Assembly: GCF_019603315.1 (NCBI RefSeq)
Contig: NZ_CP080649.1
Coordinates: forward strand, 1,875,501 to 1,939,500
Length of the DNA stretch: 64,000 nt
Source: Ruficoccus sp. ZRK36
Lineage (GTDB): Bacteria > Verrucomicrobiota > Verrucomicrobiia > Opitutales > Cerasicoccaceae
Direction of reading: 5' to 3'
Part shown: in pieces, positions 24,093 to 59,063 of the stretch
Layout of the letters: each line of letters begins with the position of its first letter
How positions within the stretch are numbered: position 1 is the stretch's first letter
The notes under the pieces: model-generated
Database searches by the model: none
Seen by the model: only the letters and a program-made list of their open reading frames with translations
What the model was told of the DNA's origin: nothing
Position numbers and translations under genes: made by a program

Positions 24093-26423
24093 CTACAGGT
24101 CGATTTCCAGTGTGGCGGGTTTTAAGCCTTCGGCGTGAGCATACACTCTGAGTTGGCCGGGCTTGCTGCCGACTCTGATCGCACAAGCGCACACTCCGGC
24201 CCACATGCGCCGGTCCGGGCACTGAGGGGGAATATGGTCGGTATGGTCGGAGCCGGTACCGGCCACAGACCCGAGCCCATTTGTCGTGAAGCTAATGAAG
24301 GGTGACGCATCGGGCACCAGCTGCCCCGCCTCATCGACACAGGTGCAGTGCACGACAGCGAGGTCACAACCGTTGGGGCTCAGGTCATCGCCATTCATGA
24401 GCTCGAGGCGTAGTTCACGGGCTTGCCCGCTCGTTACCTTGAGGTCTTCACAGACTGGCTGACCGTCGCGGTAGCCCACGGCTTTGACTTCACCGGGGTG
24501 GTAGGCGACCTGAAATTCGACATGCCCGTAGGGCTCGTTCTTTTTGCGGCCGAGGCTTTTCCCGTCCTGAAGGAGCTCCACTTCCTCGCAGTTGTGGTAC
24601 ACGCACGCGCGAATCATTTCGCCCTCGCGGCCGGACAGGTTCCAGTGCGGCAGGATGTGCACCATGGGTTGGTCCGTCCAGTGAGACCTGTTTTGCCAGA
24701 AGGCGTCTTTCCTGATCAGGTATAGATCGTAGGCGCCGGAGACAGAGCACAGGCGGGGCCATGCCGCCTCACCTCGGTGTTCGATGCCCGCCCACTGGAA
24801 TGCACCCGCCAGCCAGGGGCGTGCCATGAAGTACTTCCAGGTGCGTTCCCGCCCCATGAAGGACTGGTTGACGTCGCGGTCGTAGCAGTCGAGGCGGCCG
24901 CGATACTCGTCCTCGGGTAGATACCAGCCCCGCGTCGTGCCGGTGGCGCAGCACTCGCTGGAGATAATGGTCTTGGTCGGGTATTTTTCGTGGAGGGTGT
25001 CGTAGGCCGGAAGATTATAGTTCACCCCGATGATGTCCGAGATGTCGTTGACGGTGGCCATAGCCGGGTTATTGGAGATGGCTGTCATCACCGGGCGTGA
25101 GTCATCGAGTCGCTTGGCGTAGGCGTACATGGTCTGCACGATACGTCGGCCCTCGTCCGTCTCGTGGAAGGGCTCTTCGTTACCGACGCTCCACATGATC
25201 ACGCTCGGGCGGTTACGGTCGCGCTTCATGAGCATCTCCAGCTGAGCCAGTCCCTCCGGAGTGGACTCAAACCAGCGCGTTTCGTTCATGACCATGAGCC
25301 CGAGGCGGTCGCAGGCCTCCATCGTCTCCTCGGCATGCGGGTAGTGAGCGGTGCGCAGGGCATTGGCGCCCATGTCTTTCATCAGGCGCATCCGGTAGCG
25401 GTGGATGTTGTCCGGGACGGCCTTACCCGTGAGCCCGTAGTCCTGATGGCAGCAGACACCCTTGATGACCGTTTTCTCGCCGTTCAGCCAGAAGCCTTCA
25501 CCGTTAAACTCGAGCGTGCGAAAGCCAAAGCTCACCGAGTACTCATCCAGGGGATCTCCCTGCGGCGAGCGAAGCGTGGTTCTAAGCGTGTATAAATGCG
25601 GGTGGTTCATGTGCCACAGTAGCGGATTCGCTACCTGCATCTCCGCTTGGGCCTTGCCCAGGTGCTTGCGGTTCACGCTCACCGCTGTATCCGCCGTGCA
25701 GATACAGCTCCCATTGGGGTCGATGACTTCGTGAGTGATGTTGATCTCGGCAGGCTCAAAGGAATCGTTGCGTATCGTCGTTTCAACCGGGACGCACCAT
25801 TGGCCGTCGTCGAGTGCTTTGGGGTTTACCCACACACCATAGGTATCTACCGAGAGCAGGGCTGTTTTCTTTAGCCAGACATGGCGGTAGAGTCCGCCGC
25901 CTTGGTACCACCAGCCCTCGTGGCTATCGGATTGGACGTACACCGCGACCGTATTGTCTTCTCCGTAGCGCACGACGTCCGTGATATCGACTTCGAAAGA
26001 GGTGTAGCCGCAGAAGTTATGCGCCATCTGGCAGCCGTTGACATAGACGGTGGCGTGGGTTGCCACACCGTCGAAGTACAGCGACAGCCTTTTATCCCGG
26101 TCCGATTCCTCCACTACGAAACGTTTGCGGTACCAGGCATTGTCGTATTTGAAGAAGCCCAGCGTTTGGTTTTTCGCAGGGTCCGGCGTGCCTTCGATGA
26201 TGTAATCATGCGGCAGGGTGACGTGCTCCCAGGGAGTGTTGTCAAGGAGCTGGTCTCCCCCGTACACATCCAGGCTGTCACGGTAATAGCGTGCAGCCGG
26301 ACCGCTTAGCATGCGTTCGGTCTTTGAGGATATGTAAGTCGCGCTCTTCAGGGTGGGGGACGGCACGTCGATATCCCCACGATGAAAAAGCCAGTCTTCG
26401 TCAAAGCAGATTTGTTCTCTCAT
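24093..26423 (-). CDS. GH2-family beta-glycosidase (beta-galactosidase-like)
   Basis: Glycosidase of 776 residues with the GH2 order: N-terminal jelly-roll sugar-binding domain (to about 200), immunoglobulin-like domain (200-300), TIM barrel (300-600) and C-terminal beta domains. The acid/base Glu is in WSVGNEEPF and the nucleophile Glu in ISSECCAT. HYPHAEETMEACDRLGLMVMNE is the typical barrel stretch. No signal peptide is present, so it is probably intracellular. The specificity could be beta-galactoside, beta-glucuronide or beta-mannoside; the N-E/S-E motifs do not separate these. Confidence 0.92.
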   Translation of the reverse strand: MREQICFDEDWLFHRGDIDVPSPTLKSATYISSKTERMLSGPAARYYRDSLDVYGGDQLLDNTPWEHVTLPHDYIIEGTPDPAKNQTLGFFKYDNAWYRKRFVVEESDRDKRLSLYFDGVATHATVYVNGCQMAHNFCGYTSFEVDITDVVRYGEDNTVAVYVQSDSHEGWWYQGGGLYRHVWLKKTALLSVDTYGVWVNPKALDDGQWCVPVETTIRNDSFEPAEINITHEVIDPNGSCICTADTAVSVNRKHLGKAQAEMQVANPLLWHMNHPHLYTLRTTLRSPQGDPLDEYSVSFGFRTLEFNGEGFWLNGEKTVIKGVCCHQDYGLTGKAVPDNIHRYRMRLMKDMGANALRTAHYPHAEETMEACDRLGLMVMNETRWFESTPEGLAQLEMLMKRDRNRPSVIMWSVGNEEPFHETDEGRRIVQTMYAYAKRLDDSRPVMTAISNNPAMATVNDISDIIGVNYNLPAYDTLHEKYPTKTIISSECCATGTTRGWYLPEDEYRGRLDCYDRDVNQSFMGRERTWKYFMARPWLAGAFQWAGIEHRGEAAWPRLCSVSGAYDLYLIRKDAFWQNRSHWTDQPMVHILPHWNLSGREGEMIRACVYHNCEEVELLQDGKSLGRKKNEPYGHVEFQVAYHPGEVKAVGYRDGQPVCEDLKVTSGQARELRLELMNGDDLSPNGCDLAVVHCTCVDEAGQLVPDASPFISFTTNGLGSVAGTGSDHTDHIPPQCPDRRMWAGVCACAIRVGSKPGQLRVYAHAEGLKPATLEIDL

Positions 26424-26528: not shown

Positions 26529-27896
26529 TTAATCGATGACAACGGGTTCGATTTTGCGGAGTCGGCAGAGGTCTTTAAGCTCCTCGACGATGTCGCCGTG
26601 GATGACAGAGAAGTGGTGCTCGAAGCCGCCGTAGACAAGTGTCTCGGATATCTTCGACAGGTCGGCGTCGAACTTGATCTTCATCGGATTGCCGCGCAGG
26701 ACCTGCTCGGTGGGGATGGCGGTGCCGGTGGTAATGAGCATGCGGTAGCCGTCTCCGTTTTGGTTTTCGCTCAGGCGGGCCATGGTGACTTTTCCGGTTT
26801 TGATTGGGAACTCCATGGTGAGGCCCTTCTTGCCACCGCCGTCCATGATCGAGTGCTTGCGCAGCTCGGGCTTGGCTGATGAGCAGCAAAGGGAGGCCGG
26901 AGCTGCCCCGCAGTGCCAGGTCATGCCGACGTTTTCATCCGAGTCGATAGAGATCAAATCGCAGAAGAAGGGCAGCTCGCCGGTCAGCTCGTGCTCCATC
27001 ATCATCGTGACGGTGCCGTAGATGTCGCCTTCGCAGCCGGTGAGGATGCCCTCGTCGTTGAGGAGGCTGGAGATCGCGCACACGGCGATGCCGAGCATGT
27101 CCCCAAACTCCGGCCAGCAGCGCACGGCGAAGCTGGTGAGATGGTACTTGTCCTTTAGTTCGAGGAAGGCCTCGTAGAGGGCAGCACCTTTGCTCAGTTC
27201 GGACTCGTTTACGCCCTCTGACGGGGTCCCGGAACCCGTCAGCACCTTCAAGCCTTCGGCCTGCTTTTGCTCGGAGATTTTGCGGGTACTTTCGATCAGT
27301 TCCCAAAGTGTGATCAGCTCGATCTCCACGCCCAGCTCACGGCGCAGCAGCAGCTCGTCCGCATTGGAGGCATAGAAGCCGGGCACGCGGTTGCCGACGA
27401 CCCCGAGCTTGAAGCGCGAAAGCGACTTGAGACACTTGAAGACGTTGAGCTTTTTCCCCAGCGCCCCGGCTGCATCCTCCAGCGGCGCGTGTACGTGCAG
27501 GTACTCGTAGCCGAGCACCCACATCGCGTGGGCGTTCATGTTGACCGCGCAGAAGGAGTTCGAGCTGATGCGCCCGCCCTGCATCGGCGGCTCTGGCATC
27601 GACCACAGCAGCACCGGCACCTTTAGACGCTCGACCAGCATAGGGACGACTGCGCCGAGAGCGAAGGTGATGAAGTGGACCACAAGCACGTCCACGCGCT
27701 CTGTTTCGAGCTTCTCGATCAAAGCCTGCGCCTCGGCCTCGGTGGTGATGATGGTCTCGCCGCCTACGGTGCGTGCGCCGGGTGAGGACTGGATAAGAGC
27801 CTCCCGGCCCTGAGCCCGAATCGCTTCGAGGTGTTTGTCTACCCAGCTGCCTTTGGCGCAGGGGACGTAGCCGATGGTGAGGTTAGAATCGCTCAT
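26529..27896 (-). CDS. L-fucose/L-arabinose isomerase-family protein
   Basis: Predicted aldose-ketose isomerase of 455 residues (COG2407-like). The metal-site pattern of fucose isomerase is visible as Glu in GCEGDIYG, Asp in FFCDLISID and His in TWHCGAAP. Family members bind Mn2+ and act on L-fucose, D-arabinose or related sugars. ATG 27896 is chosen over a TTG three codons upstream. It is the last gene of a seven-gene operon that also holds an FGGY kinase and a class II aldolase, so an isomerase-kinase-aldolase route is likely. The true sugar is unknown. Confidence 0.85.
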   Translation of the reverse strand: MSDSNLTIGYVPCAKGSWVDKHLEAIRAQGREALIQSSPGARTVGGETIITTEAEAQALIEKLETERVDVLVVHFITFALGAVVPMLVERLKVPVLLWSMPEPPMQGGRISSNSFCAVNMNAHAMWVLGYEYLHVHAPLEDAAGALGKKLNVFKCLKSLSRFKLGVVGNRVPGFYASNADELLLRRELGVEIELITLWELIESTRKISEQKQAEGLKVLTGSGTPSEGVNESELSKGAALYEAFLELKDKYHLTSFAVRCWPEFGDMLGIAVCAISSLLNDEGILTGCEGDIYGTVTMMMEHELTGELPFFCDLISIDSDENVGMTWHCGAAPASLCCSSAKPELRKHSIMDGGGKKGLTMEFPIKTGKVTMARLSENQNGDGYRMLITTGTAIPTEQVLRGNPMKIKFDADLSKISETLVYGGFEHHFSVIHGDIVEELKDLCRLRKIEPVVID

Positions 27897-27923
27897 AAGA
27901 ATCAAGAGGTAACAAGTCGGTGA

Positions 27924-28757
27924 CTATGCCCGGCCGCAGGCCAGGCGGATTTTCTGTTGAGCCAGCTTCGAAGCGTGCTCGGTGACGGGATCCATAAAAA
28001 GGTCGATGGCGTTGAACTTACCCCGCTGGGCGTCTACCTGCGCTTCGAGTGCTTTCAGGTATTCGGCCATGAACTCGGTGGCGATGTTCATCTTGGAGAA
28101 GCCGGCGGCGATCACTTCCTTGACCTTATCCTCCGGCGTATCCGAGCCGCCATGCAGCACCAGTGGTATGCTGACGGCCTCCCCGCAGGCGCGGGCGAGA
28201 TCCGTACGGATGACGGGAGTGGTTTTATAAAAACCGTGGGCAGTGCCGACGGCAGCCGCCATGGCGTCCACGCCGGTCTCCTCCACGAATGCCTTGACCT
28301 CGTCCGCGCTCGGCAGGGGCGGGGTCTCGGTGTCCGTGCCGGGGATGTGCCCGAGCTCACCCTCGATGCTCAAGCCCGCCTCATGGGCGAGCTTGACGGC
28401 CTCCCTGGTCTCGCGGATGTTCTGTTCGTAGGGCTTGGCCGATCCGTCGTACATGACAGATGAAAAGCCGTACTCGATCGCCATCCTGACCTGCTCATGC
28501 GTCTGCCCATGGTCCATGTGCAGCGCTACCGGCAGCGATGTCTTCGAGGCCAGATGTCGCACCAGCGCAGCCATGTAGGGGGCCTTGCCGGTATTGAACA
28601 GGCGATGGTACACCTGGAAAATGACCGGCATCTGCTCACGCTCAGCAGCCTGCAAGACCGCCAAAGCGGTCTCCGTGTTGACGACATTAAATGCGCACAC
28701 GGCGCGCTTTTCGGAGCGCGCCTGTGGCAGGATTTCGTTAAGGGTGACCAGTGGCAT
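27924..28757 (-). CDS. Class II ketose-bisphosphate aldolase family protein
   Basis: Zn-dependent aldolase of 277 residues (GatY/KbaY/FbaA/IolJ type). Metal ligands and active-site motifs are MDHGQ, EGELGHIPG, GTAHGFYK, VLHGGSDTP and KMNIATEF. It would split a phosphorylated ketose to dihydroxyacetone phosphate and an aldehyde. ATG 28757 lies 2 bp after the stop of the Fe-S gene, so translation is coupled. IolJ of inositol pathways is one analogue, which would fit the IolB and PfkB genes upstream; tagatose- or fuculose-type substrates are alternatives. Confidence 0.9.
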   Translation of the reverse strand: MPLVTLNEILPQARSEKRAVCAFNVVNTETALAVLQAAEREQMPVIFQVYHRLFNTGKAPYMAALVRHLASKTSLPVALHMDHGQTHEQVRMAIEYGFSSVMYDGSAKPYEQNIRETREAVKLAHEAGLSIEGELGHIPGTDTETPPLPSADEVKAFVEETGVDAMAAAVGTAHGFYKTTPVIRTDLARACGEAVSIPLVLHGGSDTPEDKVKEVIAAGFSKMNIATEFMAEYLKALEAQVDAQRGKFNAIDLFMDPVTEHASKLAQQKIRLACGRA

Positions 28758-28759
28758 GA

Positions 28760-29839
28760 CTAGACGGCGGCGGGAGTTTGAGCTTGGGCCAGGCAGGCCT
28801 GCTCCAGTGTGAGGACGTTCAGCTTCGGCTCGGTGCAAGCGGTCAGTACCTCATAGGTGTAGGGGCTGGCGGTGACGAGGATATCCTCGGTGCTGTCCAT
28901 CTCCTGGATCAGGCGAGCCCGCAAGCGGGCGGCCAGGGTGGGGCGGATCTTATCAAAGACAACCGAGCCCTCGCCCAGCGCGAACGACTCTTCGGCGTTT
29001 GTGCCGAGCGGGCGCAGATCGCATCCGGCGGCCTTGAGCAGGGCTCGCGGCTCCTCGGCCATGTCGTTGTAGTTACGCAGAAAATCGCTATCGATGTAGT
29101 AAACCGTAGAAGCGTTTTCGGGCAGCTTGAGCTTTCCAGATTCGACCAGCTTGAGCAGGTACTCGCTGGTGTGAAGGACTTCGATGCTGTCGAGTGCAGC
29201 GCCCCACTTGGCGAAGTCGTTCTTAAGCGCGTCATACGCAGCCGGGCAGGAAACAACCACACTCTTGCAGCCGCTCTTCTCGATCAGCGCCTTGACCTGT
29301 GCAGCCAGTTCGGCGGCGTCCTTGGTATAGCCCAGCGCGCCCAGGGCCTTGCCGGTGTCGCTGACGGAGAGTGTTTCGTAAGACACACCTGCCAGCTCCA
29401 TCAGGCCGGCGAAGGCGTCAGCCGCGGCGATGGCGCCGGCGGTGTATGTCGTGCTTTTCAAATACAGCACTTCACAGCCCTCTCCGCTCAGCTGCGGATC
29501 AAAGTCCGCCTTGAGCGCGTCGGCCACGGCCTGTACCTCGGCGGGTGCAAGGCCCTGCTCGACCACATCGCAGCGGGCGGCCAGGGCGAGCCCGGCCTCG
29601 TCAAAGTGACTGACGCAGTGCTTGCGGCAGGCGGCCGAGAGTGTGTTGTCGTAGAAGGTCTTGATGAAGTCCGGATTACTCCACTGCTCGGGCTTCATGC
29701 TGAGGCGGTCGATGATGAGCGCGTTGCCGCGCGGGATGTCAGCCTCGCGAAAGCTGACGTTGGCGGTCGTCGCCAGGTGCCGGCACATGAAGCAGAAGCG
29801 GCAGGCATTGATGACGTCGCGGTAAGAGTCGGTGTTCAT
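28760..29839 (-). CDS. Fe-S-binding oxidoreductase subunit (GlpC/LutA/HdrD-like)
   Basis: Protein of 359 residues. N-terminal cysteines C13-x2-C16-x2-C19 (CRFCFMCRH) and C71/C75 (CRKHC) could bind an Fe-S cluster. The C-terminal half resembles the CCG-type domain seen in glycolate or lactate oxidase partners, but the double-Cys-Gly motifs themselves are not visible, so the cluster set is reduced. It directly follows the FAD oxidase gene (48 bp) and probably passes electrons from it to quinone. ATG 29839 gives the family-like start; a frame extends 16 codons upstream. Confidence 0.8.
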   Translation of the reverse strand: MNTDSYRDVINACRFCFMCRHLATTANVSFREADIPRGNALIIDRLSMKPEQWSNPDFIKTFYDNTLSAACRKHCVSHFDEAGLALAARCDVVEQGLAPAEVQAVADALKADFDPQLSGEGCEVLYLKSTTYTAGAIAAADAFAGLMELAGVSYETLSVSDTGKALGALGYTKDAAELAAQVKALIEKSGCKSVVVSCPAAYDALKNDFAKWGAALDSIEVLHTSEYLLKLVESGKLKLPENASTVYYIDSDFLRNYNDMAEEPRALLKAAGCDLRPLGTNAEESFALGEGSVVFDKIRPTLAARLRARLIQEMDSTEDILVTASPYTYEVLTACTEPKLNVLTLEQACLAQAQTPAAV

Positions 29840-29887
29840 AGTCGTGATCCTCTCAAAGATGTATTTTAGGTTGTCATACTGCGGCAA

Positions 29888-31327
29888 CTACACGCCGAAG
29901 CCCATTTTTCCGGGGTTCATGATGCCGAGCGGGTCCATGGCGGTCTTGATGCGCTTGAGTACGTCGAAGGCCTCGCCGTAGAGCTCGGGCATCATGCGGC
30001 CCAGCTTGAGCCCGACGCCGTGGTGCTCGTTGATAACTCCGCCGTTGGCGATGGCGGCGCGCACGGCCGTGTCCCAGATTTTGTTGTAGAGGGCGACAGC
30101 TTCGTTGGGGTCCTGCGGCGGCTCCTCGATGATGAAGCGCGCATAGAGCATCGCTCCCCACTCGTACCAGTGCGAGAAGTGACCGATGAATGTGGCCTCG
30201 GGGAAGTTGTCGTTGACGGCGTTTTTCATCGCCCAGTAGACCTTCTCGATGTTGGTAAAGGTGGCCACCGTATCGAGTGTGCCGAAGGCCTGTGGCATGT
30301 GGAACATGTAGGGCGGATAGAAGAACTTGTAGCGGTTTTCCCACCAGGTTTCCCCAGCTTCGGTGCCGAGATCCTCGGGGTCCTGTTTTTCACAGATCGC
30401 ACAGGCCTTGGCCATTTCCAGGTCCACCATCTCCCTGGGGCCATCGAAGCCGAAGACCAGGTACGAACCTTCGCGGTCAATGTCCAGCACGCGCTTGATC
30501 AGGCGGGCGGTTTCAGGATTGTCGTAAAGACGGATCGCGCACGGACGCAGACGCGAGGTCATGATCTCCGCTCCGGCCGCCATCGCCGTGTGCATATCCT
30601 TGAAGAGGTAGGCGTGGAATTTCCGACACTCGGGGATCGGGTGAATTTTCAGCGTGGCCTTGGTCATGACACCCAGCGTGCCCTCGCTGCCGAGGAAGAG
30701 CTGGGTGAGGTCCGGACCAGAGGCATGGCGCGGCACGGGTAGGGTGTTAATGATCTTCCCCTCGGGGGTGACCATCTCCACGGACATGGTCATGTCTTCG
30801 ATTTTGCCGTACTTGGTCGAAAGCACGCCGGTGCCGCGGTGGGCGAGGAAGCCCCCGAGCGTGGCGCAGCCGATCGATGCCGGGAAGTGCATGGTGGAGA
30901 AGCCCGCCTTTTCCGTGGCCCACTCCAGCTGCTGCATATTGCAGCCGGTCTCCGCCGTGATGGTCAGCGCCTTCTCGTCAACCTCGATCACGCGGTTGAG
31001 TTTCTTCGTATCCAGGCTGATGCCTCCGAAAACGGGCAGCGCGCCGCCCTGCGAGCCGGAGCCGCCGCCCCAGGGTGTGACGGGGATCTTGTACTTGTTG
31101 GCGATTTTCATCACCTCGGCCACAGCCTCGGTCGTCTCCGGAGTCACGATGATGTCCGGGCAGCGCGGGGTCTCGCCACGGTCGTGCCAGAGTTCGGGCA
31201 CCCAGTAGTAGTCGATGGAGTGCCCCAGCTTATCGGAGGCATCGATGGAGACATTGTCTTCGCCGATGGCCCAGGTTAGCTCGCTGCGGATCATCTCGAA
31301 GAGGTAATGCGTCGTTTGCGGAAGCAT
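29888..31327 (-). CDS. FAD-binding oxidoreductase (GlcD/FAD_binding_4 family)
   Basis: Flavoprotein of 479 residues. The FAD-binding domain has PVTPWGGGSGSQGGA (about residues 80-95) and GCATLGGFLAHRGTG, and the C-terminal FAD-linked oxidase domain ends in GGVINEHHGVGLKLGR and DPLGIMNPGKMGF. These are signatures of D-lactate/glycolate oxidases and alkylglycerone-phosphate synthases. With the adjacent Fe-S protein it may form a membrane-associated 2-hydroxyacid or polyol oxidase. The substrate is probably an intermediate of the same operon. Confidence 0.9.
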   Translation of the reverse strand: MLPQTTHYLFEMIRSELTWAIGEDNVSIDASDKLGHSIDYYWVPELWHDRGETPRCPDIIVTPETTEAVAEVMKIANKYKIPVTPWGGGSGSQGGALPVFGGISLDTKKLNRVIEVDEKALTITAETGCNMQQLEWATEKAGFSTMHFPASIGCATLGGFLAHRGTGVLSTKYGKIEDMTMSVEMVTPEGKIINTLPVPRHASGPDLTQLFLGSEGTLGVMTKATLKIHPIPECRKFHAYLFKDMHTAMAAGAEIMTSRLRPCAIRLYDNPETARLIKRVLDIDREGSYLVFGFDGPREMVDLEMAKACAICEKQDPEDLGTEAGETWWENRYKFFYPPYMFHMPQAFGTLDTVATFTNIEKVYWAMKNAVNDNFPEATFIGHFSHWYEWGAMLYARFIIEEPPQDPNEAVALYNKIWDTAVRAAIANGGVINEHHGVGLKLGRMMPELYGEAFDVLKRIKTAMDPLGIMNPGKMGFGV

Positions 31328-31371
31328 GGGATTTTTCTAGTTTGGATTAAAGGCCGCGTGCCCGGCGCTCG

Positions 31372-32868
31372 TTAGTCGATTTCACGGTAGACATCCGCCA
31401 GCACGTCGTGGATGCGGGTGTACAAGGGAAAGGCTTTGGCGTAGCGGGCGACATTGTCGGGCTGCGGCTTGACCGGCTCGCGCTCACGCAGGCATTTTTT
31501 CACCGCGTCGCGTTCGTCGCTAAAGACGCCGGTACCGACACCGGCCAGCAGGCAGGAGCCGTAGGAGGCATCGCAGCCGGAGGGCCGGATGATCTCCCGC
31601 CCAAAGACATCGGCCACGATCTGCGTCCACAGCTCGCTCTTGGCGCCGCCGCCAATCAGGCGCAGTTCATTCACGGGCAGCTGCATCTCTTCAATCGTGC
31701 GGAAGCAGTCGCGCAGGGAGAAGACGACCCCCTCCAGCAGGGCACGGATGAAGTCGTCGCGTGTGTGGCGCATGGTCGCGCCGACAAAGCTTGCCCGCAG
31801 CTTTGGGTCCCAGTACGGGGCGCGTTCACCTAAAAGATACGGGTGGAAAAAGAGACCATGTGCACCGGCGCTCGAACGCGCAGCAGCATCATCCATCAGG
31901 TCGTAAACCTTACGGCCCGTACGGGCGGCCTCGTCGATCTCGGCTTGGCCAAAAAGGTCGCGGAACCACCGCTGAGAGCGGGCGGCGCAATTTGTCGCCA
32001 CCACCGTGAACCAAAGTCCCGGCACCACATGCGAATAGGTCAGTGTGCGAGCATTGGGCACGGGTTTGTCCGTCATGACATTGACGTTGCCCGCCGTAGC
32101 CATCTTGAGAATAAGGCTACCTGGCTCAATCGCGCCCGCGGCATAGTCTTCAATCGCAGCGTCGGATGTGCCGCATACGACCGGAATGCCTGCGGGCAGC
32201 CCAAACTCTCGGGCGGCCTGTTCAGTGATAGTACCCGTCACCGTCGTCGGGTTGACCAGATCAGGCAGGATCTCCTGCCGGATGCCTGCGAGCTCGCACA
32301 GCGGCTCGGACCAGTCCTGCCGCGCCATATCAAAAAAGAGCGTGCCCTGCGCCTCGATCTTATCCGTACAACACACGGCGGTGAGACGCCAGCGCACGTA
32401 ATCTTTCACAAAGAGCATGTGCTCGGTCTTGCGTAGCGCCTCCGGCTCGTGCCGACTCAGCCAGAGCATCTGCGGCAGCGTCCAGGTCGGCGCGGCCATC
32501 TGGTAGGCGGTCTTGAAAATCAACTCGCCGTGCTCGGCGTTGAGCTCGGCTGCCTCTGCAGCGCTCCGCTGGTCGGTCCACATGATGACCGGGCGCACGG
32601 GCTGCATGTGTTTGTCCAGCAGCACGGCGTTGTGGGTAGAGCCGTCCACGGCGATGGCATCGACTTTTTTCAGATCGATCTTTTCGCGCAGCTGATCGAG
32701 GCAAGCGCGTACGGCCACGCACCAGTCCTCGGGGTTCTGCTCGGCCCAGCCGGGATGCGGCTGTGCGCTCTCGTACTCGGCGAAGCCCTCGCCATGCACG
32801 ACGCCACTCGCGTCGATCGCGGTGACTTTGCAGCCACTGGTGCCGATATCTATGCCTAGAAGGTACAT
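31372..32868 (-). CDS. FGGY-family carbohydrate kinase (xylulokinase-like)
   Basis: ATP-dependent sugar kinase of 498 residues. The N-terminal phosphate motif GIDIGTSGCKVTAID, the MWTDQRS substrate loop, the GTSDAAIEDYAAGA motif and the C-terminal GGGAKSELWTQIVADVFG adenosine motif are all present. Length and motifs are closest to xylulokinase, but FGGY kinases for fuculose, rhamnulose and others look similar. The gene lies 9 bp downstream of iolB in the operon. Confidence 0.9.
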   Translation of the reverse strand: MYLLGIDIGTSGCKVTAIDASGVVHGEGFAEYESAQPHPGWAEQNPEDWCVAVRACLDQLREKIDLKKVDAIAVDGSTHNAVLLDKHMQPVRPVIMWTDQRSAAEAAELNAEHGELIFKTAYQMAAPTWTLPQMLWLSRHEPEALRKTEHMLFVKDYVRWRLTAVCCTDKIEAQGTLFFDMARQDWSEPLCELAGIRQEILPDLVNPTTVTGTITEQAAREFGLPAGIPVVCGTSDAAIEDYAAGAIEPGSLILKMATAGNVNVMTDKPVPNARTLTYSHVVPGLWFTVVATNCAARSQRWFRDLFGQAEIDEAARTGRKVYDLMDDAAARSSAGAHGLFFHPYLLGERAPYWDPKLRASFVGATMRHTRDDFIRALLEGVVFSLRDCFRTIEEMQLPVNELRLIGGGAKSELWTQIVADVFGREIIRPSGCDASYGSCLLAGVGTGVFSDERDAVKKCLREREPVKPQPDNVARYAKAFPLYTRIHDVLADVYREID

Positions 32869-32877
32869 GGCGAAAGC

Positions 32878-33672
32878 CTACTGCATGCGCGCTGCATGGA
32901 CGGGGTCTTCGTAGCGCTTGAAGCCGCGTTCGTGTCCCGCCATGACCCACAGGTAGTACATGGTGTATCCGGGGGTGTTCACCGTCGGGTGGTAGCCCTC
33001 GGGGATGACGATCGTGTCGTTTTCGCGCACTGGGTAGGCGACATCGGTGCTGGTGTCATCGGTGTAGATCAACTGCAGACCGAAGCCGGTGGACGGGTTG
33101 AAGCGGTAAAAGTACAGCTCTTCCATGTCCAGCTCGCCGGGCGGGTTGTGGAAGTCGTGGCGGTGCGGCGGGTAGCTGGCCCAGTTTGCCGAGGGCACCC
33201 AGGCCTCGCCGACGAACAAGTGCTGCGCGGGTGCGTCGTCACCGATCATGATGACCGCCTCGCGCTGGCAGCCGTCCTTGCCCAGCTTCATATACGTGTC
33301 CTTGACGTCATCGGCGGTGTAGAGGACGGGCTCTCCGGATTTGTCGCAGGGGGATTCGGCGATGGCGACCTCGACCGCGCTCTGGCCGGTCAGCTTGACC
33401 TCACACTGGGGCGGGATGTAGAGCGTGTACGGATCGCCAGAAAAGACATCCTTGCGGGCTCCGATCACGCCAAAGTCTTTGCCGCCCGCCTCAGCGTTGC
33501 AGGTGCCTCCGAGCACGACGAGCACCAGCTCCTTTTCGCCGGAGTTCACGGACCAGTCTTCGCCGGGGGCAAGCTTGAGCAGTCCAAAGCCGGTCATTGC
33601 CATGCCTTTTTCGCCAATGTCAAAGATGCGGTTAAAGCCGTCCGCAGCGGGGGTTTTGATTAAATGTGTCAT
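32878..33672 (-). CDS. iolB: 5-deoxy-glucuronate isomerase (IolB family)
   Basis: Bicupin of 264 residues. The metal-binding pattern includes PPHRHDF and ELYFYRFNP, and the C-terminal MYYLWVMAGHE is typical of IolB. In inositol catabolism IolB converts 5-deoxy-D-glucuronate to 2-deoxy-5-keto-D-gluconate. Here the enzymes that would make its usual substrate (IolG, IolE, IolD) are absent from the operon, so either they lie elsewhere or the substrate differs. It lies between the PfkB and FGGY kinase genes with short gaps (18 and 9 bp). Confidence 0.88.
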   Translation of the reverse strand: MTHLIKTPAADGFNRIFDIGEKGMAMTGFGLLKLAPGEDWSVNSGEKELVLVVLGGTCNAEAGGKDFGVIGARKDVFSGDPYTLYIPPQCEVKLTGQSAVEVAIAESPCDKSGEPVLYTADDVKDTYMKLGKDGCQREAVIMIGDDAPAQHLFVGEAWVPSANWASYPPHRHDFHNPPGELDMEELYFYRFNPSTGFGLQLIYTDDTSTDVAYPVRENDTIVIPEGYHPTVNTPGYTMYYLWVMAGHERGFKRYEDPVHAARMQ

Positions 33673-33690
33673 GATAAATGGGGGCTGTGT

Positions 33691-34620
33691 TTAAAGGGAT
33701 GGCGCTGTCGCGCTCTTGATAAAGGCGAGGGCTTCCTCACGGGTCGGGATGCCGGTGCGACCGCCAAGCTTGCGGCACTTCATGGCCGCAACTGCGGAAG
33801 CAAAATGCAGGCAGTCAGCCAAGTCCGGGCCACTGGCCATCGTGTCCACATAGCGGGCTGCAAAAGCTCCGTGAAAGACATCACCTGCGCCCGTGGTGTC
33901 CACCACCTTGACATCGGGTGTAGGGATTTCGTGGATACGCTTCCCGTCAAAGCCAATCGAGCCGTTGCGCCCGAGCGTCACCCCTGTCCACTCCGGTCCT
34001 AGCCGGTGGAGTGCGCGGGCAGCTGCCTGTGGGTCTTTTTCGCCCGTGAATCTTTCGGCAAATACCTCCGAGGCGATCACCACCGTGCAGAGCGATAGGA
34101 GCCGTTCGATATCGTTCACGAGTGTCCCGGCATCGAGAAAGACGGGGATGTCATGCGCACGGGCAATCTCTGCTGCGCGGATAGCCGCGGGTGTCTGATG
34201 ACCGTCCAGATGGAGCGCGCGAGCGGAGAGGATCGCCTCTTCGCTGACCTCATCCGGAGTGAGGGGAGCTGCGCCGCCATGGGTCCAGGCGATGCTGCGC
34301 TTACCGGTGGACTGATCGACCCAGCAATAGGCCGTCGCTGACGAGGTTTCGGTACGTTTTACCAACCACTCCGTGCTGACTCCTTCTGTGGCGAAGTCTG
34401 AGAGGATATTCTCACCGTTGCGATCATCACCGATAGCCCCGATAAAGGTGGTCTTTGCACCGAGACGGGCTGCGGCCGCGATAGCGGTTGCTGCGGGGCC
34501 ACCGCCTTGCTCAATGCTTTGAACGATCTGTACCTTGTCGTCCAGTGGGATGTGGGGCAGCAGACAGAGCGTGTCCCAACTGCAATAGCCCAGGCCCAGG
34601 ATGTCTGATTTCGATTTCAT
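33691..34620 (-). CDS. PfkB-family sugar kinase (possible IolC)
   Basis: Ribokinase-like kinase of 309 residues. The N-terminal GGG substrate motif (SIEQGGGPAATAI) and the C-terminal catalytic motif VDTTGAGDVFHGAF are clear. Next to iolB and with an IolJ-like aldolase downstream it could be 2-deoxy-5-keto-gluconate kinase (IolC), but a ribokinase or 2-keto-3-deoxy-gluconate kinase cannot be excluded. It is the first gene of the seven-gene operon; a perfect inverted repeat lies 115 bp upstream of the ATG. Confidence 0.85.
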   Translation of the reverse strand: MKSKSDILGLGYCSWDTLCLLPHIPLDDKVQIVQSIEQGGGPAATAIAAAARLGAKTTFIGAIGDDRNGENILSDFATEGVSTEWLVKRTETSSATAYCWVDQSTGKRSIAWTHGGAAPLTPDEVSEEAILSARALHLDGHQTPAAIRAAEIARAHDIPVFLDAGTLVNDIERLLSLCTVVIASEVFAERFTGEKDPQAAARALHRLGPEWTGVTLGRNGSIGFDGKRIHEIPTPDVKVVDTTGAGDVFHGAFAARYVDTMASGPDLADCLHFASAVAAMKCRKLGGRTGIPTREEALAFIKSATAPSL

Positions 34621-34903: not shown

Positions 34904-35707
34904 CTAGAGTATACGGGTCTGGGACTTCGTGCAGGCTTCCTGGATGTCCTCGGGCGGCTGCGTGTCAGACACCAAAACTGATAACTTTGTGAGATCACAA
35001 ATGCCAAAAAGTGCTTCCCGCTGGAACTTGGAGGAGTCAGCCAGCAATATCGGGCTTGCCATGTCGGTGAGCCCACCCAGGAACCGGGCATGGTCTTCCT
35101 GGAACGTGAATGCCCCGTTTACGCTGATTCCGACGGCAGAGAAAAACAGCTTTGTGATGCGCATGCTCTCTACTGTCTTGGTCGCTATCCCGCCCAGAAA
35201 CGAGTGTAGCTGGGGGTTGTAGGTGCCCCCGATGCTGATCAGTGTCATCGTCGGCGGCAGTGAGGGGAACTCATTGATAATCGCGCAGGAGTTGGTGATA
35301 ATGGTCAGCCGGCCGAGGTTTAGTGCAGCAGCCTCTCGGGCCAGTTGCAGCACCGTGGTCGAGGAATCGAGAAAAACCACATCATCCTCCTGCAAGAGGG
35401 TAGCCGCCTTGCGGGCGATCTTGCGTTTCGCATCCAACTGTCGGGTCATTCGCTCTCCGAAGCGGGATTGCGCCCAATCCTCTGGCCGCGATTCAGCTTC
35501 GATGTAACCTACGCCACCATGTGTCCGGGATATCAGTCCTTCTCCGGCCAGTTCGTTCACATCCCGATAAATAGTGGGGATAGAGACATCGAACTGCTGG
35601 CCGATCTCCTCGACAGTGCAATGGCGGCGATTTTTGATAAAATCGAGGATTTCACGCCTCCTTGTCTGACTGGGTTTGTTGCCTGATATCGCTTTCACCG
35701 CCAGCAT
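34904..35707 (-). CDS. DeoR-family transcriptional repressor (IolR-like)
   Basis: Repressor of 267 residues. The N-terminal helix-turn-helix reads ILDFIKNRRHCTVEEIGQQF followed by SIPTIYRDVNELAGEGLISRTHGG. The effector domain has FLDSSTTVLQLAR, TIITNSCAI and the ILLADSSKF motif of DeoR sensors, which usually bind a phosphorylated sugar. It lies directly upstream of the iolB operon on the same strand. TGATAATT-type sites lie in both promoters, so control of the operon and of itself is likely. Confidence 0.93.
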   Translation of the reverse strand: MLAVKAISGNKPSQTRRREILDFIKNRRHCTVEEIGQQFDVSIPTIYRDVNELAGEGLISRTHGGVGYIEAESRPEDWAQSRFGERMTRQLDAKRKIARKAATLLQEDDVVFLDSSTTVLQLAREAAALNLGRLTIITNSCAIINEFPSLPPTMTLISIGGTYNPQLHSFLGGIATKTVESMRITKLFFSAVGISVNGAFTFQEDHARFLGGLTDMASPILLADSSKFQREALFGICDLTKLSVLVSDTQPPEDIQEACTKSQTRIL

Positions 35708-35814: not shown

Positions 35815-36681
35815 TTATACCGCGTCGAAAACACGGACGTAATCGACCTCGAAGAAATCGGGAAGGACGGCGTTGTGGAGATCCTTCGATGCGCGGGAGG
35901 GGAAGCCGTCTTCACCGCTGGCGACTTCTTCGAGCCCACCGCGGTTGACGCCAAAGCCTTCATGGTGGTAGCCGTGGCACTCGGTCGAGACGAGGATGTA
36001 CTGCTCGACCTCCGAGACCGGCGCTTTTTGCACCCCGACCTCTTTACCGTCCGCATAGAACACGTATCCATCCGGGCTCCAGTCTACCGCATAGCGATGC
36101 CAGCCATCTTCTGTCTCTTCGTAGGGATACCAGAAATGACCGTGCCAGGTAGAGTCCTTGCCGTAACCGCCCCAGCCGTTTCCGCAGCCGATCAGCCCCT
36201 GCTTGTGCTGCTTGTAGTTCTCCATGATGTCGCATTCGACTCCGCCGAAGCGGGGGTCGGGGTGCGCACCGATACACGGTGACTGCAGCCAGAAGGCTGC
36301 ATGCCATCCGGGATTCTTGGGCAGACGGCAGCGGATCTCATAGAAGCCATAGCGGTGCAGGAACTTCATCGGCTGGTAGGAGCCAAAGGGCCAGAAGCCG
36401 TCGCTGTCCTTGGGGATGTCATAGGTGAGAGAGCCCGTCTGCAGGTGGGCTGAGTAAAACTCGCCGTCTTTCTTGACCAGATTGATACGCAGCTTGCTGT
36501 CATCGACCTCGACGCCCTCAGTCGTGAAAGTCGGGGAAGGACGCCCCCAGAAGTTCAGCCGATAGTTCCACTTGGATTCGTCCAGCTCCTCGCCGTCAAA
36601 CTCGTCATTCCAGACCAGTTTCCAGTTTTTGTTTTCGGGCAGCAGGCTGTCTGCATGCCCATTCAGTTGGTAGCTCTTCAT
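35815..36681 (-). CDS. GH16-family endoglucanase/galactanase, no signal peptide
   Basis: Predicted beta-glycan hydrolase of 288 residues with a jelly-roll fold. The catalytic motif E-x-D-x-x-E is present in GGVECDIMENY (beta-bulge type, seen in laminarinases, agarases, porphyranases and carrageenases). W-rich substrate-cleft residues are visible (FWPFGSYQPMKF, GWHAAFWLQSP). Unusually for GH16 there is no signal peptide from the ATG at 36681, so it would act inside the cell or the export signal is non-standard. It follows the PEP-CTERM gene on the same strand and belongs to the second module copy. Confidence 0.88.
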   Translation of the reverse strand: MKSYQLNGHADSLLPENKNWKLVWNDEFDGEELDESKWNYRLNFWGRPSPTFTTEGVEVDDSKLRINLVKKDGEFYSAHLQTGSLTYDIPKDSDGFWPFGSYQPMKFLHRYGFYEIRCRLPKNPGWHAAFWLQSPCIGAHPDPRFGGVECDIMENYKQHKQGLIGCGNGWGGYGKDSTWHGHFWYPYEETEDGWHRYAVDWSPDGYVFYADGKEVGVQKAPVSEVEQYILVSTECHGYHHEGFGVNRGGLEEVASGEDGFPSRASKDLHNAVLPDFFEVDYVRVFDAV

Positions 36682-54674: not shown

Positions 54675-54787
54675 TTTTTGGTCACAGCGTTCACAGAGGA
54701 GGCCCAGAGAACACAGAGTTTTCAGAATAATATTTCTCCGAGTGCTCTGTGCTTTCTCTGTGAGCTCTGTGGCCAGCCAATTAAAAA
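54675..54787. repeat. Inverted-repeat element (CACAGAG type), copy 1
   Basis: 113-bp imperfect palindrome between the dehydrogenase and the Ldh2 gene. The left arm (54675-54718) and right arm (54745-54787) are built from CACAGAG-like units. The reverse complement of the right arm contains GGCCACAGAGCTCACAGAG, identical to the left arm of the element at 58887. The ends are T-rich/A-rich. No coding capacity; it resembles a REP/MITE-type sequence. Confidence 0.8.
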
Positions 54788-54798
54788 TATCCCATATC

Positions 54799-55899
54799 AT
54801 GTCCGAAACTTTCTACATCGTTCCCGAGTCCGAGCATAACGCTCTGGTCGTTGCCGCCTACCGCCACCGTGGTTTCACCGAAGACGAGGCCGCCGCTGCC
54901 GCTCGTTTCTCCGCCCACGCCAGCCGCCACGGCATTCGCACCCATAACGCGATCAAGGCCCTGCACCTCGATCACCTTTTTGGCTCCATGGCTGGTGGCT
55001 GTAAGCCGAATGCCCAGATCGAGAAGAAGTCCACCCGCTTTGCCGCGAGTGAGATCTGGAATGCCAACCGCAAGCTCGGTCAGGCCACCGCCTACGAGGC
55101 GATGGATACCGCTATTGCGCTGGCGGATAAGTACGGGATCGGACAGGTTTCGGTGGACAACGCCTTTCACTACCTCTGGGGTGGGGGCTACGTGATGGAG
55201 GCCGCCGCGCGCGGTTATATCGCCTATACAAACTGTACCGCAGCACTGGCCGAAGTCGTGCCCTTCATGGGTAAGTTCCCCACGCTCGGGACTAATCCGC
55301 ACTCCTGGGGCTTTCCCACGACGGACGCGGTCGGCTTCCCGCTGGTTGTGGACTGGGCGACCTCCGTGGTTGCGATGGGGCGCGTGCAGCAGTTCGCCCG
55401 TGAGGGCACCCAGCTTCCCGCCGGTGCCGCCGTGGACAAGAACGGTAAGCCCACCACCGAGCCGACCGAGGTAGCCGCTCTGACGACCTTCGGGGCACAC
55501 AAGGGCTATGGCCTCTCGCTCATCAACGAGCTGATGGGCGCCTTCATCGGTGGCTCGCTGCCGACCCTGCGCTCGCGCTGGGAAAAGCAGCCCGACGAGA
55601 AGCATACGCCGGCCTTTTACTTTCAGGTTATCCACCCCGAGGCCGTGTCTGGCGGGGACTTTGCCCTTGGTCGCGATCAGGCTGCAAATGTCAAGGCCGT
55701 CCTCGCCGACATCCTCGGTCATGGTAACGAATCCTGCATCCTGCCGGGCCAGATTGAGGCTGAGGCTGCCAAGCGCTCGGACGCGGCCGGTGGTCTGCTC
55801 TTCTCGCGGGCCGAGATCGATGCCTTTAACGAGATCGCACAGGAGTGCGGCGAGAAGGGCTGGAAGCGGGACGACTTCGCCGTGGCCCCCGATGCCTAA
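54799..55899 (+). CDS. Ldh2/malate-L-lactate dehydrogenase family oxidoreductase
   Basis: NAD(P)-dependent dehydrogenase of 366 residues of the Ldh2 (YlbC/YiaK/ComC) fold, unrelated to the Rossmann LDH family. Motifs SRHGIRTHN, NPHSWGFPT and FGAHKGYGLSLINELMGAF are characteristic. YiaK members reduce 2,3-diketo-L-gulonate, so a sugar-acid substrate suits this uronate operon. ATG 54799 is preferred to the longer upstream frame, which would run into the repeat element. Confidence 0.9.
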   Translation: MSETFYIVPESEHNALVVAAYRHRGFTEDEAAAAARFSAHASRHGIRTHNAIKALHLDHLFGSMAGGCKPNAQIEKKSTRFAASEIWNANRKLGQATAYEAMDTAIALADKYGIGQVSVDNAFHYLWGGGYVMEAAARGYIAYTNCTAALAEVVPFMGKFPTLGTNPHSWGFPTTDAVGFPLVVDWATSVVAMGRVQQFAREGTQLPAGAAVDKNGKPTTEPTEVAALTTFGAHKGYGLSLINELMGAFIGGSLPTLRSRWEKQPDEKHTPAFYFQVIHPEAVSGGDFALGRDQAANVKAVLADILGHGNESCILPGQIEAEAAKRSDAAGGLLFSRAEIDAFNEIAQECGEKGWKRDDFAVAPDA

Positions 55900-55980
55900 A
55901 GGCATGCGGGCGCGCCACCTCGGCGAGTTCGTCGAGATGCGCGCTTGCCGAGCCTGTGCTGATGCGCTACATCCTGCCTC

Positions 55981-56454
55981 ATGAAAGCTTTGATCATCCG
56001 TTGTCTTTTCGTCGCCTCCCTGCTGTTACCCGGTCTGCTCCGGGCAGAAACGGTCAATCCGCAGGCGGCGATCATCGGGACCTGGGTGATTGATTCGGAG
56101 GAGAGCTGGGCCAACTTTGAGGATTCTTCGGAGTGGGCACAGATGACCCCTGAGCAGCGGGTGGACTTCAGCGCGACGATGTGGCCCAAGGCTCTCGAAA
56201 AGCTGCTTTTCACCGCCTACCATTTCTCAAAGGGTGAGATCACAATCGTCCACAAGGAGAACCAGATCCGCATCCCCGCGCGCTACATCACTGCCAGCGG
56301 GAAAACCTTGACTGTGATCATGGGCGAGCAGCCCAACGTCACCACGCTGACCATCACCTTTTATAACGCTGATCAAATCAACATCCGCTCAGCCGGTGAA
56401 GTCCGCCCCAACTACTATGTGTGGAAGCGGCGCGGTAAGGCTCAGCAGCCCTGA
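55981..56454 (+). CDS. Small secreted protein of unknown function (lipocalin-like domain possible)
   Basis: Protein of 157 residues with a signal peptide (about 1-22, ending LLRAE) and a beta-rich mature part (IIGTWVIDSEES at the start, TVIMGEQPNVTTLTITFYN later). The initial GTWVID and the strand pattern resemble small lipocalin-like proteins. No known partner was identified. It lies between the Ldh2 gene and kdgK, 81 bp and 47 bp from them, and may ride on the operon. Confidence 0.7.
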   Translation: MKALIIRCLFVASLLLPGLLRAETVNPQAAIIGTWVIDSEESWANFEDSSEWAQMTPEQRVDFSATMWPKALEKLLFTAYHFSKGEITIVHKENQIRIPARYITASGKTLTVIMGEQPNVTTLTITFYNADQINIRSAGEVRPNYYVWKRRGKAQQP

Positions 56455-56501
56455 ACATTTAAACCATCAAATCCTTAGATAGACCTAAAGAGACACTACC
56501 C

Positions 56502-57599
56502 ATGGCCATTGATATCAAGCCCAAGGAATCCTGCCAATATGACATTATCTCGCTCGGCGAGGTGATGCTGCGCCTCGACCCCGGTGAGGGCCGCGTGCAC
56601 ACCGCCCGTCAGTTCACCGCCTGGGAAGGTGGCGGCGAGTATAACGTGGCCCGTGGCCTGCGCCGCTGCTTCGGCCTGCGCGCCGCAGTGGTGACCGCCT
56701 TTGCCGAGAACCCCGTCGGTCGCCTGATCGAGGACTTTATCCTGCAGGGTGGCGTCGATACCCGCTTTATCCAGTGGAAGGACTACGATGGCGTCGGCCG
56801 TACCGTGCGTAACGGCCTCAACTTCACCGAGCGCGGCTACGGTATCCGTGGCGCTGTCGGCGTGCCGGACCGTGGCCACACCGCAGCCAGCCAGCTCAAG
56901 GTCGGCGACGTTGACTGGGAATACATTTTCGGCGAATGCGGCGTGCGCTGGTTCCACACCGGTGGCATCTATGCAGCCCTTTCCGACACCACGCCGGACG
57001 TTGTCATCGAGGCGGTCAAGATCGCCAAGAAGCACGGCACCATCGTCTCCTACGACCTCAACTACCGCCCCTCGCTGTGGAAGTCCATCGGTGGCCACGC
57101 CAAGTGCCAGGAAGTCAACCGCGAGATCGCCAAGTACGTGGACGTCATGATCGGCAACGAAGAAGACTTCACCGCGTGCCTCGGCTTCGAGGTCGAGGGT
57201 GTGAGCGAGCAGATCGGTAACATCCAGGTCGAAAGCTTTAAGAAGATGATCGCCACCGCCGTGAAGGAGTTCCCGAACTTCCAGGCCACTGGCACGACGT
57301 TGCGCGAGGTCCACACCGCCACCGTCAACGACTGGAGCGCCATTTGCTGGCACGACGGCGAGTTCTACGAGTCGCAGCAGTACCCGCGCCTTGAGATCAT
57401 GGACCGCGTCGGCGGCGGCGACAGCTTCGCCAGCGGCCTCGTCTATGGCTTCCTCGCCAAGAACGACCCGCAGCAGGCCGTCGACTACGGTGCCGCCCAC
57501 GGTGCCCTCGCCATGACCACCCCCGGTGACACCACCATGGCCTCCTGCAAGGAAGTCGAAAAGATCATGAAGGGCGGCGGCGCCCGCGTCGTGCGCTAG
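56502..57599 (+). CDS. kdgK: 2-keto-3-deoxygluconate kinase (PfkB family)
   Basis: PfkB-family kinase of 365 residues that phosphorylates KDG in the uronate route. GGGEYNVARGLRRCFG is the substrate-binding start, and RVGGGDSFASGL carries the catalytic Asp and anion hole. The length is slightly above the usual 310-340 because of the N-terminus. It is followed 18 bp later by a mobile-looking GxxExxY element that separates it from the SDR gene. Codons are strongly C/G-ended, suggesting good expression. Confidence 0.9.
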   Translation: MAIDIKPKESCQYDIISLGEVMLRLDPGEGRVHTARQFTAWEGGGEYNVARGLRRCFGLRAAVVTAFAENPVGRLIEDFILQGGVDTRFIQWKDYDGVGRTVRNGLNFTERGYGIRGAVGVPDRGHTAASQLKVGDVDWEYIFGECGVRWFHTGGIYAALSDTTPDVVIEAVKIAKKHGTIVSYDLNYRPSLWKSIGGHAKCQEVNREIAKYVDVMIGNEEDFTACLGFEVEGVSEQIGNIQVESFKKMIATAVKEFPNFQATGTTLREVHTATVNDWSAICWHDGEFYESQQYPRLEIMDRVGGGDSFASGLVYGFLAKNDPQQAVDYGAAHGALAMTTPGDTTMASCKEVEKIMKGGGARVVR

Positions 57600-57616
57600 A
57601 ATTGAAAATATATTTA

Positions 57617-58071
57617 TAACCGCAAAGAGCGCAAAGGGCACAAAGAGGTTCGAAACGATGGACGTCGAAGCAGCAGCTGGGACCGTTATCGATGCTGCCA
57701 TTGAGGTGCATCGCTTACTGGGGCCCGGACTGTTGGAGAATGCGTACGAGCTTTGTCTGGCGCACGAGTTGTCCCTCCGGGGTGTAAGCTTTGTGCGCCA
57801 GAAGTGTCTTCCTGTCGTCTATAAGGATTACCAGGTTGAAGATGCCTATCGTGTGGATTTGCTCGTGGAGAATTGTCTGCTGGTTGAACTGAAGTCTGTC
57901 GAAAAAATGACTGATGTTCACATGGCCCAGGTCCTTACATACTTAAAATTGTCTGACCTACAGCTTGGATTACTTCTCAACTTTAACACGACCCTTATGA
58001 AGCATGGGATTCGACGAGTGGTGCACAATTACCACCCAAGCTCTTCGTGTTCTTAGCGTTCTTTGCGGTTA
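57617..58071 (+). mobile_element. GxxExxY element flanked by 31-bp inverted repeats
   Basis: 455-bp unit bounded by imperfect inverted repeats, left 57617-57647 and right 58041-58071, matching at 26 of 31 positions. Both read TAACCGCAAAGA at the outer end and are built from CGCAAAG/CACAAAG-like units. The right repeat contains the stop codon of the internal ORF. No clear target duplication was seen. It sits inside an operon between kdgK and the SDR gene. Confidence 0.75.
57658..58056 (+). CDS. GxxExxY protein (PD-(D/E)XK nuclease-fold, PF13366-type)
   Basis: Protein of 132 residues. The motif is G24-x-x-E27-x-x-Y30 (PGLLENAYE). A PD-(D/E)XK-like core follows: D67 and E77-L-K79 in YRVDLLVE and LLVELKS. 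Members are common and multicopy in Verrucomicrobiota and related genomes, with no proven function. Its codons are less C/G-ended than the flanking operon genes, a sign of separate origin. The last codons (SSSCS, stop) fall within the right inverted repeat of the surrounding element, so ORF and repeat travel together. Confidence 0.88.
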   Translation: MDVEAAAGTVIDAAIEVHRLLGPGLLENAYELCLAHELSLRGVSFVRQKCLPVVYKDYQVEDAYRVDLLVENCLLVELKSVEKMTDVHMAQVLTYLKLSDLQLGLLLNFNTTLMKHGIRRVVHNYHPSSSCS

Positions 58072-58090
58072 ATCCGAATAACTTAAAACC

Positions 58091-58870: not shown

Positions 58871-58886
58871 TGTAAACATCAAGAAC

Positions 58887-59028: not shown

Positions 59029-59063
59029 AACATTTTCTCCCGAACCCACCAACCACCACGCCC

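Follow-up and report, generated by a model that had tools for sequence, protein, structure and literature searches.

We analysed a 64,000-nt window of the Ruficoccus sp. ZRK36 genome (contig NZ_CP080649.1) that carries an operon of carbohydrate enzymes, among them a member of the IolB family. All positions refer to this whole window, and the minus-strand operon at 26529-34620 was taken as the reference copy. Eight minus-strand genes span 35707 to 26529, in the order DeoR, PFKB, IOLB, FGGY, FAD, FES, ALD, and ISO. The first encodes a DeoR-family regulator (34904..35707) with DeoRC and HTH_DeoR domains and 28% identity to E. coli CsqR; its matches to the GlpR/SrlR-type models were below cut-off, and a DeoR homologue stands divergently beside the operon in many loci. 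The seven enzyme genes encode a PfkB-family sugar kinase (PFKB, 33691..34620), a KduI/IolB-family cupin isomerase that is not linked to inositol (IOLB, 32878..33672), a xylulokinase-type carbohydrate kinase (FGGY, 31372..32868), a VAO/ADPS-like flavin dehydrogenase with FAD_binding_4 and FAD-oxidase_C domains (FAD, 29888..31327), its predicted electron-transfer partner with a single [4Fe-4S] cluster (FES, 28760..29839), a class II aldolase of the dihydroxyacetone phosphate (DHAP) type (ALD, 27924..28757), and an aldose-ketose isomerase of the FucI/AraA superfamily with Fucose_iso_C/Arabinose_Iso_C domains (ISO, 26529..27905). The starts of FES (ATG, 29839) and ALD (28757, MPLVTLNEIL) are later than those of the longest open reading frames and are backed by homologue alignments. 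Gaps of only 2-48 bp separate the enzyme genes, which are therefore read as a single transcript; judged from the sequence, the seven form one tight operon behind the DeoR gene and not a chance neighbourhood. The gene list of the initial annotation was correct in content, with all named genes on the minus strand and their families confirmed.

The name of the IOLB family suggests inositol catabolism, a function that genome content contradicts. The absence of iolG, iolD, and iolE, pointed out in the initial annotation for the operon, extends to the whole genome, where the best matches to IolD (210 bits, cut-off 715), IolE (45 bits, cut-off 290), and IolG (137 bits, cut-off 355) all fell below the curated cut-offs. 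The same was true of IolA, the methylmalonate-semialdehyde dehydrogenase (MMSDH; 181 bits, cut-off 448.5) that would handle malonate semialdehyde. IolE, IolG, and MMSDH were also below cut-off in six gut relatives that carry the operon, which makes seven operon genomes in total. Among 289 genomes of the phylum, IolB was above cut-off in 33, IolD in seven, and both in none. With 33 and seven genomes, an overlap of zero is statistically unremarkable on its own; what counts is that IolD is missing from each of the 33. Every one of the 30 inspected loci with an above-cut-off IolB adjoins the FGGY, PFKB, ISO, or FAD gene of the operon. The seven IolD genomes encode a different IolB (83-156 bits, below the cut-off of 205), which, going by the listed coordinates, adjoins IolD in six of these genomes; one of two such loci that we opened held a full iol cluster. 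Phylogenetic analysis placed the IolBs that are IolD-linked, of uronate context, or unassigned in one group (98/98), away from those of the operon; the window copy has a long branch, however, and the operon sequences were not in every case recovered as a single clade. An inositol route was thus rejected on genome content (IolD, IolE, IolG, and MMSDH all below cut-off), and the operon, a conserved unit of its own, almost certainly does not serve inositol catabolism, as the initial annotation had proposed. For the operon IolB clade, the equivalog name "5-deoxy-glucuronate isomerase" is not to be relied on, because the genome content of the whole clade contradicts an inositol function. The operon IolBs pass TIGR04378 and those of the IolD genomes in the same phylum fail it, an annotation trap.

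The operon was traced by homology searches at two scales. Among 132 genomes of the order, six gut Opitutales had close copies of ISO, with the gene order PFKB-ISO-IOLB-FGGY-FAD-FES-ALD wherever the contig was long enough, followed in several by a carrier of the major facilitator superfamily (MFS). An ISO-profile scan of GTDB species genomes identified 73 loci, nearly all in Verrucomicrobiota, Lentisphaerota, Kiritimatiellota, or Planctomycetota, and most had several other operon genes alongside, contig permitting. The gene set recurs in dozens of genomes with its order mostly kept. Pairwise distances of the seven proteins were correlated (r 0.70-0.92), to which shared genome ancestry contributes. 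FAD was the most conserved, with a median identity to the window copy of 68%, followed by FGGY (56%) and the others (43-49%). Distribution within the genus is patchy, through loss or transfer: two same-genus genomes (G020 and G039) had no IolB match. A full operon was also present on LBWG01000004.1, labelled Candidatus Uhrbacteria, where its IolB groups among Lentisphaerota copies; mis-binning of the contig or recent transfer may explain this.

Both isomerases of the operon should be active aldose-ketose isomerases, a prediction we make because their metal-site residues are invariant. IOLB, the sole KduI/IolB protein in the genome, passes the NCBIfam equivalog TIGR04378 (232.9 bits, cut-off 205), and its positions H170, H172, E185, and H228 are invariant. 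Its structure model (predicted local distance difference test, pLDDT, 88) had IolB (2qjv) as the best fold and KduI as the next. A W242/N difference was dropped as a marker of non-inositol function, since the IolD-linked IolBs of the phylum have W too. The initial annotation described ISO as fucose-isomerase-like; it is closer to the sulfoquinovose isomerase SftI than to FucI. SftI is its best named family, although the score of 272 bits is far short of the SftI/SqvD equivalog cut-off of 700, and a phmmer search of ISO against the PDB gave chance-level matches only. Residues E292, D316, H331, and H431 are shared with relatives in Chlorohelix, Zymomonas, and Listeria.

Several IolB and ISO homologues on plasmids and in other genomes stand in contexts of their own. 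On a Priestia megaterium plasmid (NZ_CP092389.1, L125:7001-7804), an annotated iolB is flanked by alcohol/aldehyde dehydrogenase genes on one side and by those for altronate dehydratase and tagaturonate reductase on the other. The stretch covered contains no further iol genes, and this iolB is a candidate for an IolB-family galacturonate isomerase. A similar solitary iolB occurs on a Lachnospira eligens plasmid (L124). A Chlorohelix plasmid (L131:8615-11257) has an ISO homologue (SftI score 343, below the cut-off of 700) adjoining a pyrophosphate (PPi)-type phosphofructokinase and near a nitrite/sulfite reductase, an arrangement that resembles the second sulfoglycolytic Embden-Meyerhof-Parnas pathway (sulfo-EMP2). 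Distant ISO relatives in Monoglobus and Listeria (L133:7860-14091 and L135:5296-12657) are accompanied by a split transketolase, an FGGY kinase, and DUF5060/DUF4038 proteins, and from this company the loci possibly serve apiose use.

PFKB had been called IolC-like, which proved too specific: it reached 114 bits against the IolC model TIGR04382 (cut-off 300). Its best solved relative is the E. coli sulfofructose kinase YihV, with 133 bits against 101 for the next match and 36% identity. Two YihV residues that we take to be sulfonate contacts, R138 and N109, are replaced by H141 and A111 (PFKB numbering) in nearly all operon copies. ALD matches PF01116 (273 bits) and narrowly passes cbbA (216.2 bits, cut-off 215.6). 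Its relatives in the PDB are ketose-bisphosphate aldolases, and ALD itself is a generic class II enzyme of the ketose-bisphosphate type.

The remaining three proteins appear to form a unit. FGGY passes the xylulokinase XylB model TIGR01312 (406.6 bits, cut-off 380.25), fails the L-fuculokinase FucK model TIGR02628 (118 bits, cut-off 471), and has E. coli XylB as its best PDB match. FAD had been labelled glycolate-oxidase-like, again too narrowly, for its best solved relative is alkyl-DHAP synthase (ADPS) and not glycolate oxidase. It contains an EHHGVG motif and lacks the metal motif GHxGDGNxH, which we take to belong to D-2-hydroxyacid dehydrogenases. An assignment of FAD as a GlcD-type D-2-hydroxyacid oxidase was weakened by the absence of that motif and by the ADPS-like HHG motif. 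FES matched no Pfam family. We infer a role in electron transfer, with one [4Fe-4S] cluster, because exactly four cysteines are invariant (13, 16, 19, and 75) and its model (pLDDT 92) resembles EtfD, LutA, and HdrB, the nearest folds. A Mesorhizobium plasmid carries FGGY-FAD-FES without the other operon genes (44% identity for FGGY and 49% for FAD), and the simplest reading is that these three would constitute a separable module that oxidises and then phosphorylates. In that plasmid (Mesorhizobium sp. B2-1-8, L130:10477-14558), the genes xylB, FAD, and a "hypothetical" lie beside a LacI gene and an ATP-binding cassette transporter, and FES seems degenerate.

The operon works like known isomerase-kinase-aldolase routes and is a member of none that we tested. 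It shares with the myo-inositol pathway of Bacillus and Rhizobium (IolB-IolC-IolJ) a KduI/IolB-family isomerase, a PfkB kinase, and a class II aldolase standing together, with DHAP release expected. It differs in lacking IolG, IolE, IolD, and IolA, in having a PFKB that is not IolC by model, in the separation of its IolB from IolD-linked IolBs in the tree, and in the addition of ISO, FGGY, and FAD/FES. The sulfo-EMP and sulfo-EMP2 pathways (YihS/SqvD, YihV/SqiK, YihT/SqiA) likewise combine an SqvD/SftI-type isomerase, a YihV-type kinase, and a PF01116 aldolase, with a DeoR-family regulator adjoining in E. coli as well. Sulfo-EMP2 itself, consisting of SqvD, a sulfofructose kinase, and SqiA, follows the same isomerase-kinase-aldolase logic (PMC9594981). 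Here, however, ISO is below the SftI cut-off, PFKB lacks the presumed YihV sulfonate-contact residues, the operons examined contained no recognisable sulfolactaldehyde enzyme, and IolB, FGGY, and FAD/FES are additional. The E. coli ygc cluster also contains an ADPS-like FAD dehydrogenase (YgcU), an FGGY kinase (YgcE), and a transporter (YgcS), although YgcU and YgcE show only 29% and 26% identity, the flavoproteins YgcQ/YgcR replace FES, and there is no isomerase-kinase-aldolase triad. The L-fucose pathway (FucI-FucK-FucA) is comparable in isomerase fold, FGGY kinase, and class II aldolase route type, with the differences that the operon ISO is not FucI, that its FGGY is XylB-like, and that it has an extra PfkB kinase, IolB, and FAD/FES.

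Our best overall explanation, to which we give even chances, is a dedicated non-inositol catabolic pathway that combines an isomerase-kinase-aldolase sequence with the FGGY-FAD-FES module. Operon co-conservation, protein families, metal- and cluster-site residues, and the missing inositol genes are read from the sequence, and from there we infer every functional step. The order of isomerisation, phosphorylation, and cleavage is the part we regard as probable. A hexuronate-type sugar would be freed from glycans by GH2, GH4, or GH35 glycoside hydrolases (GH) or imported by an anion-type MFS carrier. The IolB-type cupin isomerase, the SftI-like ISO, or both would convert aldose to ketose, the PfkB kinase would phosphorylate the hydroxymethyl group adjacent to the ketone, and the class II aldolase would split the product into DHAP and an aldehyde (a C3 aldehyde if the sugar is a hexose). 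FAD would oxidise a secondary alcohol to a ketose with electrons passing to the one-cluster FES, the XylB-type FGGY would phosphorylate the ketose so made, and this module may handle another part of the same glycan.

A sugar with an acidic C6, most simply a hexuronate, is a plausible substrate that we rate somewhat short of an even chance. We favour it because the closest characterised relatives of ISO, PFKB, and IOLB act on C6-acidic sugars (sulfoquinovose, sulfofructose, and deoxyuronates); IOLB itself falls within a family whose members isomerise uronates or deoxyuronates. The best matches of the operon MFS carrier, below cut-off, were to sugar-acid and phosphoglycerate carrier models, and these too favour an acidic hexose. 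So does the uronate context of the Priestia iolB, which adjoins altronate dehydratase (uxaA) and tagaturonate reductase (uxaB) in the place where a uronate isomerase is expected, along with the reported conversion of galacturonate and glucuronate by KduI (PMC3578941). By these last two observations, the premise of the initial annotation, that IolB acts only after IolD, is too strict for the family. The full proposal, an undescribed and widespread hexuronate route of the Planctomycetes-Verrucomicrobia-Chlamydiae (PVC) group via DHAP and tartronate semialdehyde, with an Fe-S flavin dehydrogenase, a xylulokinase-type kinase, and an IolB paralogue as uronate isomerase, is put forward tentatively, as rather unlikely to hold in every part.

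Several observations weigh against the proposed pathway. Some genomes have ISO apart from the other operon genes, and three of 12 tested lack it. GalK and UxaC are present in all 11 operon genomes tested, for which reason a role of the operon in replacing the Leloir pathway or UxaC was rejected. Tartronate semialdehyde is expected from a hexuronate, yet the operon has no reductase for it, and two isomerases and two kinases exceed the need of a single linear route. The glycosidase genes (GH4, GH2, and GH35) within or beside several operon copies vary in type (beta-galactosidase-like, beta-glucuronidase-like, GH4, and GH35), so a neutral galactoside is possible. A pathway for a neutral, galactose- or fucose-like sugar, which we consider unlikely, would start with ketose formation by ISO, continue with one or two phosphorylations by FGGY and PFKB, and end with cleavage by the class II aldolase to DHAP and glyceraldehyde, its phosphate, or lactaldehyde. 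It would fit an aldolase within the ketose-bisphosphate group, the GalA-like GH2 downstream and the GH16-like gene upstream of the window operon, the GH35, GH4 "alpha-galactosidase", or GalB-like GH2 of other copies, and the NagA/NagB that adjoin some, but GalK occurs in every operon genome tested, FGGY is XylB-like and not FucK-like, and FAD/FES are left unexplained. The KduI/IolB family, moreover, is not known to act on neutral sugars.

Under another reading, two short pathways would share one operon because their sugars stem from the same glycan: IOLB-PFKB-ALD would act on a first sugar, acidic or otherwise, and FAD/FES-FGGY, perhaps joined by ISO, would convert a pentose or polyol to a pentulose phosphate. 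The separability of FGGY-FAD-FES in Mesorhizobium, the occasional unlinking of ISO, and an FGGY above the xylulokinase cut-off are consistent with such a division, which overlaps the single-pathway explanation and differs by denying one substrate for all seven enzymes. Against it stands the strong co-conservation of all seven genes, the full set also being found in small gut genomes whose operon includes no glycosidase genes, and we hold it to be on the unlikely side. A hybrid sulfo-EMP2 route, with ISO as sulfoquinovose isomerase, PFKB as sulfofructose kinase, and ALD as sulfofructose-1-phosphate aldolase, is improbable. A precedent for such mixing is the reported Yersiniaceae cluster that brings SqvD and SqiA into a sulfo-EMP set (PMC9594981), and the family placements agree in part: SftI is the best family of ISO, which is 34% identical to the Chlorohelix homologue beside the PPi-type phosphofructokinase and sulfite reductase, YihV is the best PDB match of PFKB, and ALD belongs to PF01116, as does SqiA. 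The full sulfoquinovose assignment was nevertheless demoted over the loss of R138/N109, which became His/Ala in nearly all copies, and over the scores, with ISO at 272 of the 700 bits needed. In the operon copies examined, neither a sulfolactaldehyde reductase or dehydrogenase nor a GH31 sulfoquinovosidase was recognised (no genome-wide search was made), and IOLB, FGGY, and FAD/FES would be left unexplained. Scarcely credible is an inositol pathway whose early steps are unlinked or non-homologous and in which IOLB-PFKB-ALD would act as IolB-IolC-IolJ on 5-deoxyglucuronate. IOLB does pass the IolB model, and the three proteins fit the chemistry of IolB, IolC, and IolJ; set against this are the failure of IolD, IolE, IolG, and IolA to reach cut-off, the absence of IolD from 33 of 33 phylum genomes with the operon-type IolB when true IolD genomes use another IolB, and the 114 bits of PFKB against the IolC cut-off of 300.

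We return to the dedicated non-inositol pathway for its wider meaning. The initial annotation suggested an undescribed route for a different sugar or sugar acid; a conserved unit separate from inositol use is borne out, and no description of the seven-gene set was found in the open-access literature (most subscription papers being outside that scope). A survey of IolB neighbourhoods without IolD, recommended there, gave 33 of 33 genomes lacking IolD and 30 of 30 inspected loci beside operon genes. The operon occurs in four phyla, in anaerobes that degrade glycans in the gut, the rumen, digesters, and marine settings, and appears to be without a described substrate. Among the above-cut-off "IolB" proteins of the phylum sample, the operon type is the commonest (33 genomes against seven with IolD), and automatic annotation accordingly predicts inositol use wrongly there. 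Because the set joins three enzyme lines (IolB/KduI, SftI, and YihV) that otherwise act on acidic C6 sugars, its substrate is directly testable. A hexuronate route of this kind, if true, would bypass the altronate/mannonate reduction and 2-keto-3-deoxy-6-phosphogluconate steps of the usual hexuronate pathway.

Around the window operon, an Rfam scan of the window returned nothing except one tRNA, and promoter and repeat scans near the operon gave no signal above shuffles or none that was convincing. A GalA-like GH2 glycosidase gene (24093..26423; GalA NF041462, 766 bits, cut-off 900) follows ISO on the same strand after 105 bp and is possibly co-transcribed with the operon. Upstream of DeoR, on the same strand, a GH16-like glycosidase gene (35815..36681; PF00722, 37.6 bits) has a putative association with it. 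A separate, conventional-looking hexuronate cluster at 54742-60473 comprises an Ldh_2 dehydrogenase, a PfkB kinase, a short-chain dehydrogenase/reductase, and UxaC (59064-60473). NagA/NagB genes adjoin the operon in some other genomes, and a SIS protein of 562-566 aa and glucokinase-regulator type was encoded near it in three (L179:12125-13810, L065:6294-7994, and L069:18440-20131, with the Pfam match being to the L179 copy). NagA-like genes are present as well in L065 and L179, the former also having a NagB-like gene, which hints at amino-sugar-containing glycans.

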